Positions 12,476 to 64,000 of a DNA stretch of 64,000 bases are shown one piece after another (within the stretch, counting starts at the first letter, position 1; the number at the start of each line of letters is the position of its first letter). The notes beneath the pieces were generated by a model. That model made no database searches. It saw nothing but the letters and a program-made list of their open reading frames with translations, and was not told the origin of the DNA. The translations under genes were made by a program, and so were the position numbers. The stretch covers positions 1 through 64,000 of the forward strand of contig JAAYHQ010000063.1 of NCBI GenBank assembly GCA_012727425.1. Direction: 5' to 3'. This DNA comes from Bacillota bacterium (GTDB lineage Bacteria > Bacillota > UBA4882 > UBA10575).

Positions 12476-12590
12476 TTCTTATCTTTCAGGGTTAAACATT
12501 AACCCTGCAGGAATTGACACCGCTGCATTCGAATGGGAATGCCGGTTGTCGGGTTTCATCGGGCCAGTCCCTCCACCTCTCTCGATAAGA
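12476..12590 (-). ncRNA. SAM-I (S-box) riboswitch
   Basis: On the minus strand the leader begins TCTTATCGAGAGAGGTGGAG and continues with GGACTGGCCC, then the kink-turn GATGAAACCC, a P3 hairpin with GGCATTCC, and a closing GATAAGA that pairs with the first TCTTATC to make P1. This is the classic S-box core in order. Binding of S-adenosylmethionine stabilises P1 and lets the terminator at 12405-12439 form, turning off the DUF39-ferredoxin-UPF0280-metF operon. Confidence 0.96.
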
Positions 12591-12626
12591 CCAACTATTC
12601 AACTGTGCGATCTTTAATTAAATTAA

Positions 12627-58484: not shown

Positions 58485-58516
58485 AACCGGCCCCTCCTGG
58501 TGGCCGGTTTTTTATT
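58485..58516 (+). terminator. Terminator of the ptsI-ptsH operon
   Basis: AACCGGCC and GGCCGGTT pair around a short loop, followed by a run of T. The rest of 58423-58757 is C- and T-rich with no gene seen. Confidence 0.88.
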
Positions 58517-58757
58517 TTCCCCTTTTTCCGGTTTTCCGTGCTGCGCTCCGCTGTTCCTTTCCCACTTGCCGTCCCCCCTTTCCCCGTGAACCCTTCTCAC
58601 CCCGGCGTCCCGCCCCGCCCGTCCGTTTTTGGCCCTTGCCGACAGGGCGGAAAGAAAAAATGGTAAATTTTGTTTTTTTAAGTATCATCTTTTCCCCGCA
58701 AACATACAATGGTAATAACTTGTTTGCCAAAATAACTTCGGCCAACGGAGGATGCCC

Positions 58758-59597
58758 ATGAAAAAGCGTGCTCCCGTCCTTTGTTTCCACCTGGTTCTGC
58801 TTGCGGTTTTTCTGACTATACCGGCGGCGTTTGCCCACCCCAACCAGCCGTTAATTATCGATTTCCGGCCGGTCGCTCCCGTCGAAAAAATGAGTCTTTC
58901 CTTACCCTTTACCCTGCCGGTGGCCACCGCGGAAGTGGTGCGGTTTGAAGGTACCGGGCTTTGCGCGGTAAAAACCGGCCACCGACTGCCAATGGATCGT
59001 CTTACTTTTACCGTTGACCAAACAACAGAGCCCGGTGGGAAATTAACCGTCTTTCAACTCCGGATCCAACTGTTGCCTTCCGATCCCCCCGGCGCCTACG
59101 AAGGCTTGGTTTACGCGGTCTGTCCCGACGCCAAAGAGCGCCCACCCCTGCCCATTCTGGTTAAGGTCAGGGTTTTACCCTGGATCCGCCTCGAACCGGC
59201 CACCGTTGATCCACTCCTGACCATCGCCGACACGCCCTTTTTCACGGAAGATTTTTTACCGGCCCGCGCCCCGGTCAAATTATTACTGGCTTCCAATGCT
59301 CCTTGGCGCCTCTCGCTGCGGGTCGGCAGTAGAACTCCATTCCGTCCACCGCCGTTTCCACTCCAGATTAGCATCGGAAAAACCCTAAACACCACGGATT
59401 TTAAAGCAAAAATAATGCCTAGCGGCGAGTTTTATCCCGTCGCCTTTGGTGCCCCCACGGTGGTTGGTGAGGGTGCGCGCGCCACCGATTACTGGACCGA
59501 ACTCTACGTTACTGTTTCCATTCCCAATTGGTACCATTACCCCGCCGGGGATTATGACTTTCGCCTGTTTTTGACGGCCGAAACACTGGGCCCCTAA
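58758..59597 (+). CDS. Secreted protein of the chaperone/usher-like cluster (candidate subunit)
   Basis: This 279-residue protein has a signal peptide (residues 1-26, ending AFA). The mature part is beta-rich with two apparent sandwich halves: an N-terminal one (IDFRPVAP, then FQLRIQLLPSD) and a C-terminal one with VKLLLASNAPWRLSLRV (about 172-188) and the final strand motif YHYPAGDYDFRLFLTAE. A closing PAGxY strand of this sort is seen in subunits of archaic chaperone-usher (spore-coat-U-like) systems. GGAGG fits the ATG at 58758 best. It is first of four co-oriented genes leading to the usher-like protein. Its subunit role is inferred from context and shape. Confidence 0.65.
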   Translation: MKKRAPVLCFHLVLLAVFLTIPAAFAHPNQPLIIDFRPVAPVEKMSLSLPFTLPVATAEVVRFEGTGLCAVKTGHRLPMDRLTFTVDQTTEPGGKLTVFQLRIQLLPSDPPGAYEGLVYAVCPDAKERPPLPILVKVRVLPWIRLEPATVDPLLTIADTPFFTEDFLPARAPVKLLLASNAPWRLSLRVGSRTPFRPPPFPLQISIGKTLNTTDFKAKIMPSGEFYPVAFGAPTVVGEGARATDYWTELYVTVSIPNWYHYPAGDYDFRLFLTAETLGP

Positions 59598-59676
59598 AAA
59601 AGCCAGTGGTTACACTCCGGTAGAGGCGCGTGGATACCGGATTGTAATAAAAAAAGAACTAGCGAGGTTGGATAGG

Positions 59677-60492
59677 ATGAAAAAAATAACTTTGTTCTTT
59701 ATCACCCTGGCCCTCCTTTCCCTTGCTGCGGTCACGGTCGCCGGTGGCTACCCCGGGGAACTGGCCCCCGAATATCCTTGGTGGGAATACAACAATGCAA
59801 TCGATGACACCGATAAGCTGGCATACATGTTCGCCAACTTCTGGCATGACGGAAAAGTCACTTGGAACAAGACCGGCGATCAGTATACCAACATCGACTG
59901 GATTAACCGGACCGATTACGTTTTCGACGACAAGCACGTAGACGGGCAAACGGTGGAGATGACCCTGGAGGCCCGGGCTTTCATCCCCTGCTACCTTGAG
60001 ATGAAGGTCACCGGCAACAGGGGCCAGACCGGCTTGCGAAGCTACGGGCCGGGCATTAACACCAAAGCTTCTGCTTCCGGTTATCTCCTGGTCTTCGACA
60101 ATGAAATCGGCGGCTTCGTCGACGAAAAATGGAATATGCTTGGCCATAATCCCCACACCGAATTTGATTTCGACGAAGATAAGGTCTTTATTCAAGGCTG
60201 CGACATCTTTAAAGTGGAAGTTTATGCCAACGATCATTACAAGTATGAAGTTGAAGCCGGACCCTTGGTTTCCGAAAAGGGTTCTTTGCCGCTCCATATG
60301 CGCAGTGGTTACAGCATGCAACGCTTTGGCGGTACTTTCGTCTTCGATGAGGATGGCAAGATCTTTGAGGTTGCCGAAAAGGACGCTTGCGAGACATTAA
60401 CGGTCTACCACCAGTTTAGAGTCCCGTACACCCGCAATATTGCCCAGGGCCGCTATGATGGCCGGGTAATCTTCCGCGCGTATACCCTCTAG
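59677..60492 (+). CDS. Secreted protein of the chaperone/usher-like cluster (candidate main subunit)
   Basis: This 271-residue protein has a signal peptide (1-22, ending TVA). The body is strand-rich and acidic, with three Cys (IPCYLEMKV, IQGCDIFKVEV, KDACETLTV) and an end, IAQGRYDGRVIFRAYTL, with the GxYxxxVxxxxx pattern of secreted chaperone-usher subunits. It starts at 59677; a TTG nine bases earlier is less likely. A stem-loop right after the gene suggests it is made in excess over the chaperone and usher, as main subunits are. I find no other family match; the role is inferred. Confidence 0.65.
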   Translation: MKKITLFFITLALLSLAAVTVAGGYPGELAPEYPWWEYNNAIDDTDKLAYMFANFWHDGKVTWNKTGDQYTNIDWINRTDYVFDDKHVDGQTVEMTLEARAFIPCYLEMKVTGNRGQTGLRSYGPGINTKASASGYLLVFDNEIGGFVDEKWNMLGHNPHTEFDFDEDKVFIQGCDIFKVEVYANDHYKYEVEAGPLVSEKGSLPLHMRSGYSMQRFGGTFVFDEDGKIFEVAEKDACETLTVYHQFRVPYTRNIAQGRYDGRVIFRAYTL

Positions 60493-60520
60493 ACTCTCCT
60501 GCCATGCCGAATCCGAACGG

Positions 60521-60543
60521 GCTGGTGGACGCGCCCCACCAGC
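60521..60543 (+). other. Stem-loop between subunit and chaperone genes
   Basis: GCTGGTGG and CCACCAGC form an eight-pair stem without a T-run in the 90-base gap, a likely stability element lowering downstream expression. Confidence 0.6.
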
Positions 60544-60582
60544 TCTCTTTAATTGCCAATACCGACAAGGAGGAAACAGACC

Positions 60583-61383
60583 ATGTTCAAACCAACCCAA
60601 CGCCAAGTTTTTATCTGTCTAACCGTTGCGATCTGTTGCGCTTTGCTCTGCGCCCCCGCCGCCCAGGGCGTGGCCCGGGTCGAGCCCAGCAAGTTCATTT
60701 TTACATTGCCGCCGGGGGGCCGGATCACCGACGCGATCAAAGTCACCAACACCCGAGATACGGAGGTGGAATTTACCGCCGTCATTTACGACTGGACCTT
60801 AGACCAAGAAGGCCGCCTCGTCACTTTCCGCGCCGGCGAACGGGCGGATACCCTCGACGGTTTGATTAAATTTAACCCCCGCCGGTTCAAACTGGCCCCC
60901 GGCCAAAGCCAGTATGTCCGCTTCACCTTAACCGCACCCAAAAGCGGCGACTGGCTGGAAAGGAGGGGGATCATCTTTTTCGAAGAAAGCCGCCCATCCT
61001 CCGACCCGCTGGGTTCAACCATGGTTTTCCAGGTTGGGACCACAGTTTATCTCTCCTTTACCGAAACCGTTCATTCCTTCCGTTTATTGGGGGTAAAGGT
61101 GGAAGCAACGCCGCATGGTCCGCCGGCGATCCTGCTCGGTGTGGCGAACGAAGGACAAGCGCACATCCGCTACCAGATTGCCTACCAAATCAGCGGCGAA
61201 GACGGAACCCCATATGCCGAAGGCGCCGGGGACGAACAACTGATCCTTCCGGACAGCCGCGGCCTGCTAACCTTGCCGATCCAGGCCGATCTGCCCGCCG
61301 GTAACTACCGGTTGTCGTTAAATCTAAGTTTTGCGGGGACAACCGAAACACTCACGTCCGAAGTCCCCTTTATCATACCCTGA
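60583..61383 (+). CDS. PapD-like periplasmic chaperone
   Basis: This 266-residue protein has a signal peptide (about 1-30, ending AQG) and then the two-domain immunoglobulin-like layout of pilus chaperones. Domain 1 (about 31-155) opens with VEPSKFIFTLPPGG and the strand AIKVTNT, and carries the G1-like donor strand IKFNPRRFKLAPGQSQYVRF (about 105-124) followed by ERRGIIFFEE. Domain 2 (about 160-266) ends with the strand pattern AGNYRLSLNLSF. The start at 60583 follows AAGGAGG. It lies between the candidate subunits and the usher-like gene. In chaperone-usher systems it would fold subunits and bring them to the usher. Confidence 0.82.
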   Translation: MFKPTQRQVFICLTVAICCALLCAPAAQGVARVEPSKFIFTLPPGGRITDAIKVTNTRDTEVEFTAVIYDWTLDQEGRLVTFRAGERADTLDGLIKFNPRRFKLAPGQSQYVRFTLTAPKSGDWLERRGIIFFEESRPSSDPLGSTMVFQVGTTVYLSFTETVHSFRLLGVKVEATPHGPPAILLGVANEGQAHIRYQIAYQISGEDGTPYAEGAGDEQLILPDSRGLLTLPIQADLPAGNYRLSLNLSFAGTTETLTSEVPFIIP

Positions 61384-61426
61384 ATGGTCTTTTCTTTAAG
61401 CCGGAAGAAAGGGGGGAATTAAGATA

Positions 61427-64000
61427 ATGTGGAAAAGAAGCAGGAACCGGGTTCACCTTAACTTACTGCGGACCGTAGTTTTCTGCAGCTTAATCTCTCT
61501 TTTCGCCGGAGGACCGGCGACCGCCCAGGACCCCGACGCCTTGGCCACCAATGTTGTCCTCTTATTAATCAAAACTGAAGAGGCCACGGTCCTTCAAGAT
61601 CCCTTCTTTGACCTCCTCCCGCTGGGTGAAGAGCTCTTGGTCCCGGTCAACCGGCTGACCACCCATCTTCAGTTGGAAGTCTCCTACTTCCGGCGGGAAG
61701 AGAAGGTGGTGTTGACCAATAAAACCCACGGCAAATGGGGCGAGATTTATCTGGAAGAGAAGATTTACCGGCTCGACGGTCAATCCTTTTTCAACAGTCC
61801 ACCGCCGGTCCTCTTCAATGGCGAGATCTATGTCGGGATCCCTTTTTTAGAATCTTTGCTTGAAGCGACGATCGACTGGGACTTCCGTTACCAGGCCTTA
61901 ACCGTCAACGTGGACGCGGCCTTACTGAAACAAAGTCCCGCCCCGGTCCGGCCCGAAAAACCCGTCACCAAACCGGATCAAACACCGTCACCACAGGAAG
62001 GTCCACCCTTTGCCCTCAGTACCATCCGTTACCAACTCGGCGTCGAACACCGGAAGGAAGCAGGCGAGCACGAAGCGTTAATGAGCTTCTTTAAACTCCG
62101 GACCGACGGCTATGCCGGGGAGTGGGCAATCTCCGCAGCCGGCGGCGTAGATTACGATTTTCATCACCATTCTTTTGCCCCCGAACTGACACTGCTCCGC
62201 GGTAAATACCAGAAGGATGGCGAACTGATCATCATCGGTAATACCACCCTTGACTTGGAAAACACCATCATGGAACGGGATCTCTGGGGCATACTCTACA
62301 TGATCCCCGACGAACAGTTCCGGAGTGAATTAGTTGCCTACACCGACGTTTCCGGCCCCGCCGGCGCCGGCGACCAAATTTTCCTTTATGTGAATGACCG
62401 TTTGTGGGAGACCCAGCAGTTCGCAGCCGACGGGACGTACCTTTTCCGGGATGTCCCGCTCCAGATCAACCGGGTTAACCAAATCCGGGTCGTCACGCAG
62501 AAAACCAACGGCGAAACCTTCGAAACGACGCAAAAGATCGCCGCCTCACCCCGCCTGCTGAAACAGGACGGGAATGAACTGCTAACCACCGTCGGTCTGT
62601 ACAAACCAACCACAGTCACCACGTGGGAAGGTGTTTTGGTCGGTTACCGGCAACGGCAAGCCGTCACGGAACATCTCACCTTTGAACAAGAGACCACGGT
62701 CTCCGCGCCCTTTGTCGACTTCCCCGATTTGAGTTACATCGGTTCTGATACGGGCGTGGCTTTCCGGATCAACGATCACCTGATCTATACCCTGGATTGG
62801 CTGGTCGGTGGGGAAATCCGCTCGGTGGTCCGCACGGGCTTCGAGTCTTCGCTCTTGTATTGCTTGGAAAACGGGTATTTTGAAGGGGTTATCTTCTATA
62901 TTCCCACCGCCGTTTCCCTAGGGGTCAACAGCCAACCCGGCCAGGGGGGAAAGATCCTTTCCGAACTTGAACTCAGAAAAGATTTACTGCTCACCACCGA
63001 AGGATATCTTTTGGAGGCAACGCCGGACGCCCGCCCCTGGTCGTCGGATGGGGCCAATTTGACGCTGACCAAGCGCTTTGGGCGCTACAACCAGAACAGT
63101 CTGGCCGGCGGAATCGGGAAAGAATGGAAAACCGAAACGGGAAGCCAGGGCCGGCTCGAAACGGAGGAAACCAGCTTCAATTTAAAACATATCCAGCGGG
63201 AAAGAACGGTCGGTACCAGCACCAAAGTGGAGTTTGTCCACGTCGATCTCTTCCTTGACCAGGAAGGCCCTTTCAACGTGCAGAAACTTTATTTCATAAC
63301 CGACCTGACCTTTGCCCTCACCCGCGACCTCCTCTTCGGGGTGGCTTTGGATACAACCAACACCTGGCGAGAACAGCGCTATACCGGACTGAACTTGAGC
63401 GGCGAGGCCAATACCAAATGGAATGTGACGCCCAATACGTTGCTCATGAGCGATCTTTTCCTGCGCGGAAACAAGGAAGATCCGCCGGACGCAGCCTTCC
63501 AGATTACCGAGCTGAAAACCGGTCTTGCCCTTTATTGTTTCCTCTCCCGGGAGCTGACCCTCTTTGCGGACGTCAAACGCATCCGGGAACTGCCCTTCGC
63601 CGCCGCGGCAGAAGACTATAATTATACCAATGCCAAACTGGGCTTGAATTATCACACCTTTGACGGTAAATGGCAGATCAACGGCAACCTGGGGTACCGT
63701 TCACCGGTAAGCACCCGGGAGCACCCCCAATGGTCCTATAGTTTGAGTGTACAACGATACCTCCCGTCGTCTTTCCTGTGCACGCTGGATCTTAAGCGGC
63801 TCTATGACACGCTGTGGGATGAAGTCCCGGAAGATGTAATCCAGATCTCCGTCAGCCGCGCCCTTGGGTTTGCCGACGGGATGTGGCGACCGTTCCGCTA
63901 TACGGAAGAAGACAACGTCGCCAGCATCAGCGGGGTGGTTTATCTGGACACCAACGCCAACGGCCGCTTTGACGCCGGGGATCAACCCCTTTCCGGCATC
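61427..64000 (+). CDS. Usher-like outer-membrane protein, incomplete at the window end
   Basis: The frame is open from the ATG at 61427 to the last base (858 codons seen). Order: signal peptide (about 1-36); an N-terminal region with two similar units (LLPLGEELLVPVNRL and FNGEIYVGIPFLESLLEATI, about 55-160); a Pro/Lys linker (about 168-195); then a long run of barrel-like strands (about 200-830). A plug-like insertion at about 315-352 (DQIFLYVNDRL, YLFRDVPLQINRVNQIRVV) matches the usher pattern of a name-like sandwich within the barrel. At the edge begins a C-terminal domain, SGVVYLDTNANGRFDAGD (about 835-852), with a Ca-binding-like DxNxNGxxD loop as in archaic ushers. The neighbours (chaperone, two secreted proteins) support an usher. 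It requires an outer membrane. Confidence 0.78.
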   Translation, partial: MWKRSRNRVHLNLLRTVVFCSLISLFAGGPATAQDPDALATNVVLLLIKTEEATVLQDPFFDLLPLGEELLVPVNRLTTHLQLEVSYFRREEKVVLTNKTHGKWGEIYLEEKIYRLDGQSFFNSPPPVLFNGEIYVGIPFLESLLEATIDWDFRYQALTVNVDAALLKQSPAPVRPEKPVTKPDQTPSPQEGPPFALSTIRYQLGVEHRKEAGEHEALMSFFKLRTDGYAGEWAISAAGGVDYDFHHHSFAPELTLLRGKYQKDGELIIIGNTTLDLENTIMERDLWGILYMIPDEQFRSELVAYTDVSGPAGAGDQIFLYVNDRLWETQQFAADGTYLFRDVPLQINRVNQIRVVTQKTNGETFETTQKIAASPRLLKQDGNELLTTVGLYKPTTVTTWEGVLVGYRQRQAVTEHLTFEQETTVSAPFVDFPDLSYIGSDTGVAFRINDHLIYTLDWLVGGEIRSVVRTGFESSLLYCLENGYFEGVIFYIPTAVSLGVNSQPGQGGKILSELELRKDLLLTTEGYLLEATPDARPWSSDGANLTLTKRFGRYNQNSLAGGIGKEWKTETGSQGRLETEETSFNLKHIQRERTVGTSTKVEFVHVDLFLDQEGPFNVQKLYFITDLTFALTRDLLFGVALDTTNTWREQRYTGLNLSGEANTKWNVTPNTLLMSDLFLRGNKEDPPDAAFQITELKTGLALYCFLSRELTLFADVKRIRELPFAAAAEDYNYTNAKLGLNYHTFDGKWQINGNLGYRSPVSTREHPQWSYSLSVQRYLPSSFLCTLDLKRLYDTLWDEVPEDVIQISVSRALGFADGMWRPFRYTEEDNVASISGVVYLDTNANGRFDAGDQPLSGI

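Follow-up and report, generated by a model that had tools for sequence, protein, structure and literature searches.

Among the textbook adhesins of Gram-negative bacteria, E. coli included, are the fibres built by the chaperone-usher pathway. The classical ushers FimD and PapC are barrels of 24 strands, with a plug inserted after strand six. Classical and alternative systems have been described from beta- and gamma-proteobacteria, and the archaic (sigma) system, which has the widest known distribution, from Proteobacteria, Cyanobacteria and Deinococcus-Thermus (PMC4654587). A further point of comparison is provided by the WxL-interacting proteins (WxLIPs, DUF916/DUF3324) of Gram-positive Bacillota, which consist of two perpendicular Ig-like domains (PMC10599100). 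The locus analysed here resembles the classical systems (FimC-FimD, PapD-PapC) in combining secreted putative subunits, a two-domain periplasmic chaperone and a plugged usher-like barrel within a single operon, and differs from them in domain composition and in coming from a phylum for which no earlier report of the pathway was found. It lies at the end of the window, that is, the whole stretch of 64,000 nucleotides that was analysed, and consists of the following features.

58758-59597, + strand: orf1, a secreted 279-residue protein, probably with two beta-domains; inferred to be a minor or tip subunit
59677-60492, + strand: orf2, a secreted 271-residue protein; inferred to be the likely major fibre subunit
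60519-60545, + strand: stem-loop with a 10-bp GC-rich stem in the gap between orf2 and the chaperone gene; possible stabiliser or attenuator (function inferred)
60583-61383, + strand: chaperone-like periplasmic protein of 266 residues, with two Ig-like domains according to sequence profiles
61427-64000 (part within the window; the gene runs to 64498), + strand: usher-like outer-membrane protein of 1023 residues
Domains of the usher-like protein (approximate residues): N-terminal domain, 40-161; barrel, 195-816; plug, 303-372; two SdrD_B-like C-terminal domains, 833-1021

The four co-oriented genes recognized by the first-pass annotation are confirmed, with the qualification that the window end cuts the usher-like ORF (61427-64498), which continues on the contig (66,764 bases, contig 26 of a 2.18-Mb draft genome). 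Judged by eye, Shine-Dalgarno-like sequences back all four starts (58758, 59677, 60583 and 61427). Two hairpins, also identified by eye, flank the operon: a terminator-like one at about 58485-58520, behind PTS genes and 5' of the operon, and a strong one with a T-rich tail directly 3' of the usher stop. Since a pattern scan of the operon region found no excess of promoter-like or terminator-like sites over shuffled sequences, neither flanking terminator is claimed as demonstrated. The genes past the usher, which by eye encode a HAD-type hydrolase and a sugar hydrolase, are on the opposite strand; given this and the hairpin after the usher stop, the operon appears to contain only the four genes. 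The check proposed for the sequence beyond 64000 concerned the usher end and a tip adhesin gene; the former was found at 64498, and the latter is absent after the usher. Elsewhere in the window, a SAM-I riboswitch is located at 12476-12591 on the minus strand.

The usher-like protein escapes the current family models. No usher family of Pfam or NCBIfam matches it; the only Pfam match in its window part is Cu_amine_oxidN1, in the N-terminal domain, and its full-length homologues carry SdrD_B/CarboxypepD_reg tails. The Pfam Usher family (PF00577) did not exceed its curated cut-off in any of the 29 genomes of the class or the 399 genomes of the phylum, with the E. coli control being detected. Because the window end truncates the window's own protein, an AF2 model was made of an orthologue that is 77% identical (L066 8001-11069), using an alignment of 18 sequences (mean pLDDT 82.2, pTM 0.60). 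The model predicts, in order, an N-terminal domain, the first six strands of the barrel, an insert of six strands (residues 303-372), the remaining strands and two beta domains, so that the putative plug is inserted after the sixth strand (between 6 and 7), as it is in FimD and PapC. When this model was compared with 350,542 PDB chains using Foldseek, ranks 1-18 were all occupied by FimD or PapC, with E-values from 8.7e-28 to 7e-10 and alignments spanning up to about 1070 columns; the best non-usher was LptD (2.6e-8). The usher-like barrel with a plug anticipated from the window is thus borne out, as far as a predicted structure of an orthologue can do so. TM-scores to FimD are modest (0.34-0.58; 0.40-0.58, by target length, for those full ushers that scored best), which would be expected if the barrel of this family were larger: in the secondary-structure list of the model, residues 195-816 contain 30 barrel strand segments (6 + 24). 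A barrel larger than that of FimD and PapC is therefore possible, but neither its closure nor its strand number has been verified.

Profile comparison points in the same direction. The families were aligned with hhalign to 74 E. coli K-12 proteins, comprising 51 unrelated proteins (including BamA, LptD and FhuA) along with chaperones, ushers and subunits. The five best matches of the usher family were the classical ushers HtrE (3.3e-6), FimD, YehB, ElfC and SfmD; BamA, LptD and FhuA were not close, and no relation to the alternative usher EcpC was detectable in this set. Once the tail had been removed, the family aligned with five K-12 ushers taken together over 595 columns (E 6.4e-9). A protein from the same phylum, G219, matches both the usher family (1.7e-84) and, below the cut-off, Pfam Usher (1.6e-4).

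The two ends of the protein are less canonical. PapC_N gives no match, and the N-terminal domain reads instead as Cu_amine_oxidN1. The C-terminal half of this domain (window 61427-61910) aligns with the FimD-type usher N-terminal domain, an alignment that hints, at the level of sequence, at a relationship between the two domain families. At the other end, the usual usher C-terminal domain predicted by the first-pass annotation did not materialize, its place being taken by two SdrD_B-like domains. The similarity to SdrD was considered as evidence for an MSCRAMM adhesin and rejected, the match being limited to the C-terminal tail.

For the chaperone-like protein, hhalign against the same 74 proteins placed fimbrial chaperones in all of the top five positions, the first being EcpB (4.8e-8, 189 columns), a chaperone of the alternative (alpha) systems. 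The family profile run against PDB sequences retrieved EfmWxLIP1 (7e-7) and EcpB (5e-5) and nothing else significant, and a homologue from a Halothermothrix MAG (L130) exceeds the Pfam PapD_N cut-off (28.9 versus 23 bits, 1.2e-6). Possession of two Ig-like domains of the PapD superfamily, the criterion for a chaperone of this kind, is met on sequence profiles only; these profiles, which included non-chaperone controls, support the PapD-like two-domain chaperone originally suggested at 60583, without a model of its own structure. In the hhalign alignment to FimC-type chaperones, Lys37 occupies the Arg8 position, which is K or R in about 19 of 25 homologues inspected by eye, and Tyr156 occupies the Lys112 position. 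Hence the classical Arg8/Lys112 anchor pair is not kept, and archaic chaperones likewise lack it (PMC4654587). The conserved Arg128 and Tyr242 sit in plausible strands, no more than that; no CsuC sequence was aligned, and the CsuC anchor (Arg89/Tyr196/Arg174) could not be placed with certainty.

The subunit roles of orf1 and orf2 are inferred, as is the assembly mechanism. Neither protein has a significant family match in Pfam, and profile comparison with E. coli pilins gave nothing significant. The N-terminus of orf1 is signal-peptide-like; orf1 is the first gene in 15 loci, Halanaerobiales included, and hhalign relates its N-terminal half to small subunits of a second cluster in the same genome (sB3, E 1.1e-6; sB2, 2.1e-6). 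Homologues of orf2, again including those of Halanaerobiales, share a conserved FRVP(Y/F)...G.Y motif at the C-terminus. In the AF2 model of orf2, residues 18-102 are disordered and residues 106-271 form a beta-sandwich, with pLDDT mostly 78-94 over 171-271. CfaB pilins of the alternative CFA/I system (CfaA-CfaB) occupied ranks 1-3 in Foldseek, with a best E of 2.7e-3 and no match at 0.001; the top 43 also included CS17 pili, the CFA/I tip complex, CsuC-CsuE and PapE, all below threshold. On this model and these sub-threshold matches, orf2 resembles a pilin that lacks its donor strand. The suggestion of spore-coat-U subunits found no support: there was no SCPU match to orf1 or orf2, the best value (0.16) being confined to the second cluster.

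Folding of 12 relatives gave a strong hairpin in the orf2-chaperone gap of every one; in Halanaerobiales the stems differ. The stem-loop occurs as a single copy in the genome, which ruled it out as a repeated element. A MAFFT alignment showed only weak covariation, owing to misalignment of the loops and a core stem that hardly varies; the claim of conservation rests on single-sequence folds. By inference, the stem-loop may stabilise the mRNA or act as an attenuator, and so make orf2 the abundant product.

The order orf1-orf2-chaperone-usher is kept across the class, in three Halanaerobiales MAGs and in one other Bacillota MAG, and since these homologues are intact, the four-gene set is not a product of chance. 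An operon of subunits, chaperone and usher, a further criterion for a chaperone-usher system, is met by this conserved order, with the subunit role of orf1 and orf2 remaining an inference. Of the 29 class genomes, 13 contain close homologues, some of them split over contigs; these are G020 and 12 genomes belonging to the window's family. Full-length homologues that are more distant occur in G009 and G018. In the rest of the phylum, homologues are restricted to a minority of genomes; 81 of 399 phylum genomes match, many only through shared N-terminal or SdrD domains. More distant pairs of a chaperone and a large protein are found in Omnitrophota and Gemmatimonadota, and the cores of the Gemmatimonadota large proteins match the usher family (E 4.4e-11). 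In the Halothermothrix MAG (L130 4238-8600), the PapD_N chaperone lies between two pilin-size DUF4402 proteins and an usher-like protein, an arrangement that suggests that DUF4402 may be a pilin family; the literature search found no papers on DUF4402. The same domain is also present at a Gemmatimonadota locus (L113).

The second cluster (L044 501-6342, G000:C47) encodes a related chaperone and four pilin-sized secreted proteins, together with a convergent 896-residue protein that shares only the SdrD tail with the usher. The latter was considered as a second usher and discarded, its core not being detectably usher-like. Genes named by eye as csaB-like and SLH/OmpM-like lie near this cluster.

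The nearest named relative of the source organism is a MAG labelled Hydrogenispora sp. (L066). Hydrogenispora, an ethanol-making bacterium, is a Firmicute with an outer membrane, and is classed in Bacillota by NCBI. As the draft genome encodes LpxC (E 5e-91) and two Omp85 proteins, an LPS-containing outer membrane is very probable, on gene content, in the source organism itself. The proposal of a diderm Bacillota bearing a PapD-like chaperone and a plugged usher-like barrel is therefore supported.

Could the resemblance to ushers be fortuitous? An unrelated large outer-membrane barrel of the LptD, TonB-receptor or TamA type might simply stand beside generic Ig-like proteins, and the absence of usher HMM matches and the commonness of Ig-like folds would both allow this. 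Yet LptD and TonB receptors reach only about 1e-8 to 1e-6 in Foldseek, against 9e-28 for FimD, and the control proteins rank under the ushers in hhalign, so that this explanation appears very improbable; a wall-anchored or otherwise unrelated barrel is rejected on the same two grounds. Hardly more credible is a WxL-type surface system fitted to a second membrane, in which orf1/orf2 and the 60583 protein would be a diderm counterpart of the WxL/WxLIP pair and the barrel a porin-like anchor. What lends it some substance is that the chaperone profile matches WxLIPs over both domains: besides the PDB match given above, WxLIP genes of G087, from the same phylum, score 38.7 bits (hhalign 6.4e-9 over 232 columns), the loci concerned being L157 1357-3102 (38.7 bits) and L161 385-1425 (27.1 bits), and in L157 a WxL protein gene lies directly 5' of the WxLIP gene. 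However, Pfam detects no WxL domain in the source genome, the 60583 protein lacks the C-terminal membrane helix that WxLIPs have, and the barrel is specifically usher-like.

A secretion machine without a fibre, in which what the chaperone and usher deliver would be individual surface proteins or a coat, is harder to dismiss, although still unlikely. Repeated pilin genes are absent here, orf2 is large (271 residues) with an unusual N-terminal half, and SdrD_B domains stand in for the usher C-terminal domains that hand over subunits. Against these points, a plugged usher with a single chaperone and two substrates fits the pattern of a minimal fibre operon, and two to four pilin-sized genes are found in the Halothermothrix cluster and in the second cluster, which is related.

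The system is most probably homologous to the chaperone-usher system, and I consider it highly likely that this operon of a diderm Bacillota codes for a chaperone-usher system, divergent and of non-classical type; the subunit roles, donor-strand complementation and an adhesion or biofilm fibre are inferred. This reading draws on the conserved gene order, the outer-membrane gene set, the distant homology that links usher and chaperone to E. coli chaperone-usher proteins and the usher fold with plug of the predicted model. It has to accommodate the lack of an usher HMM above cut-off, the modest TM-scores, 30 strands versus 24, an orf2 Foldseek E above 0.001, the likeness to WxLIPs, Tyr156 and the absence of experimental data. 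In such a system, orf1 and orf2 would enter the periplasm as subunits with an incomplete beta-sandwich, to be kept there by the two-domain chaperone; the N-terminal domain of the usher would receive the chaperone-subunit complexes, and the usher would open its plugged outer-membrane barrel and thread out a fibre in which orf2 predominates and orf1 is a minor or tip subunit. Such a surface fibre may serve adhesion or biofilm formation.

The subclass cannot be assigned, the system failing those classical and archaic criteria that could be examined. Compared with the classical systems, it lacks PF00577 and PapC_N, and has a Cu_amine_oxidN1 N-terminus, an SdrD_B C-terminus and Tyr in place of Lys112. 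With the alternative systems it shares EcpB as closest E. coli chaperone and the CfaB pilins as top, if sub-threshold, structural matches of orf2, whereas EcpC has no detectable sequence relation to its usher and gene content differs. Like the archaic system (CsuC-CsuD) it has a non-classical chaperone, but it is without spore-coat-U subunits; no archaic usher was compared directly. An open-access full-text search found no report of an usher or a chaperone-usher system in diderm Firmicutes, Halanaerobiales or Bacillota, and a structural paper limits archaic systems to other phyla (PMC4654587). The description of the system as possibly undescribed consequently stands, although such an absence is not proof of novelty.

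The chaperone appears, by profile scores, as similar to WxLIPs, over its full length, as to EcpB, even though WxLIPs act at the peptidoglycan and have no usher. A bridging role of this family, whereby WxLIPs would have an ancestor in common with the periplasmic chaperones that serve chaperone-usher pili and the WxL clusters would be a remnant of a chaperone-usher-like system after outer-membrane loss, or its source, is a possible but less likely than not hypothesis. Common ancestry rests on the 60583 family as the bridge, since WxLIPs alone do not match E. coli chaperones in hhalign, and generic Ig-fold similarity is not excluded, though other Ig proteins of the PDB scored nothing significant. 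With this similarity, a concrete evolutionary link between the surface systems of Firmicutes with one membrane and those with two can be put to the test. More broadly, a divergent form in diderm Firmicutes, missed by current family models and standard annotation, would extend the chaperone-usher pathway to a new phylum. If true, there would be a second type of outer-membrane fibre in these bacteria besides type IV pili, and the finding would bear on whether, in Bacillota, chaperone-usher systems date back as far as the outer membrane.
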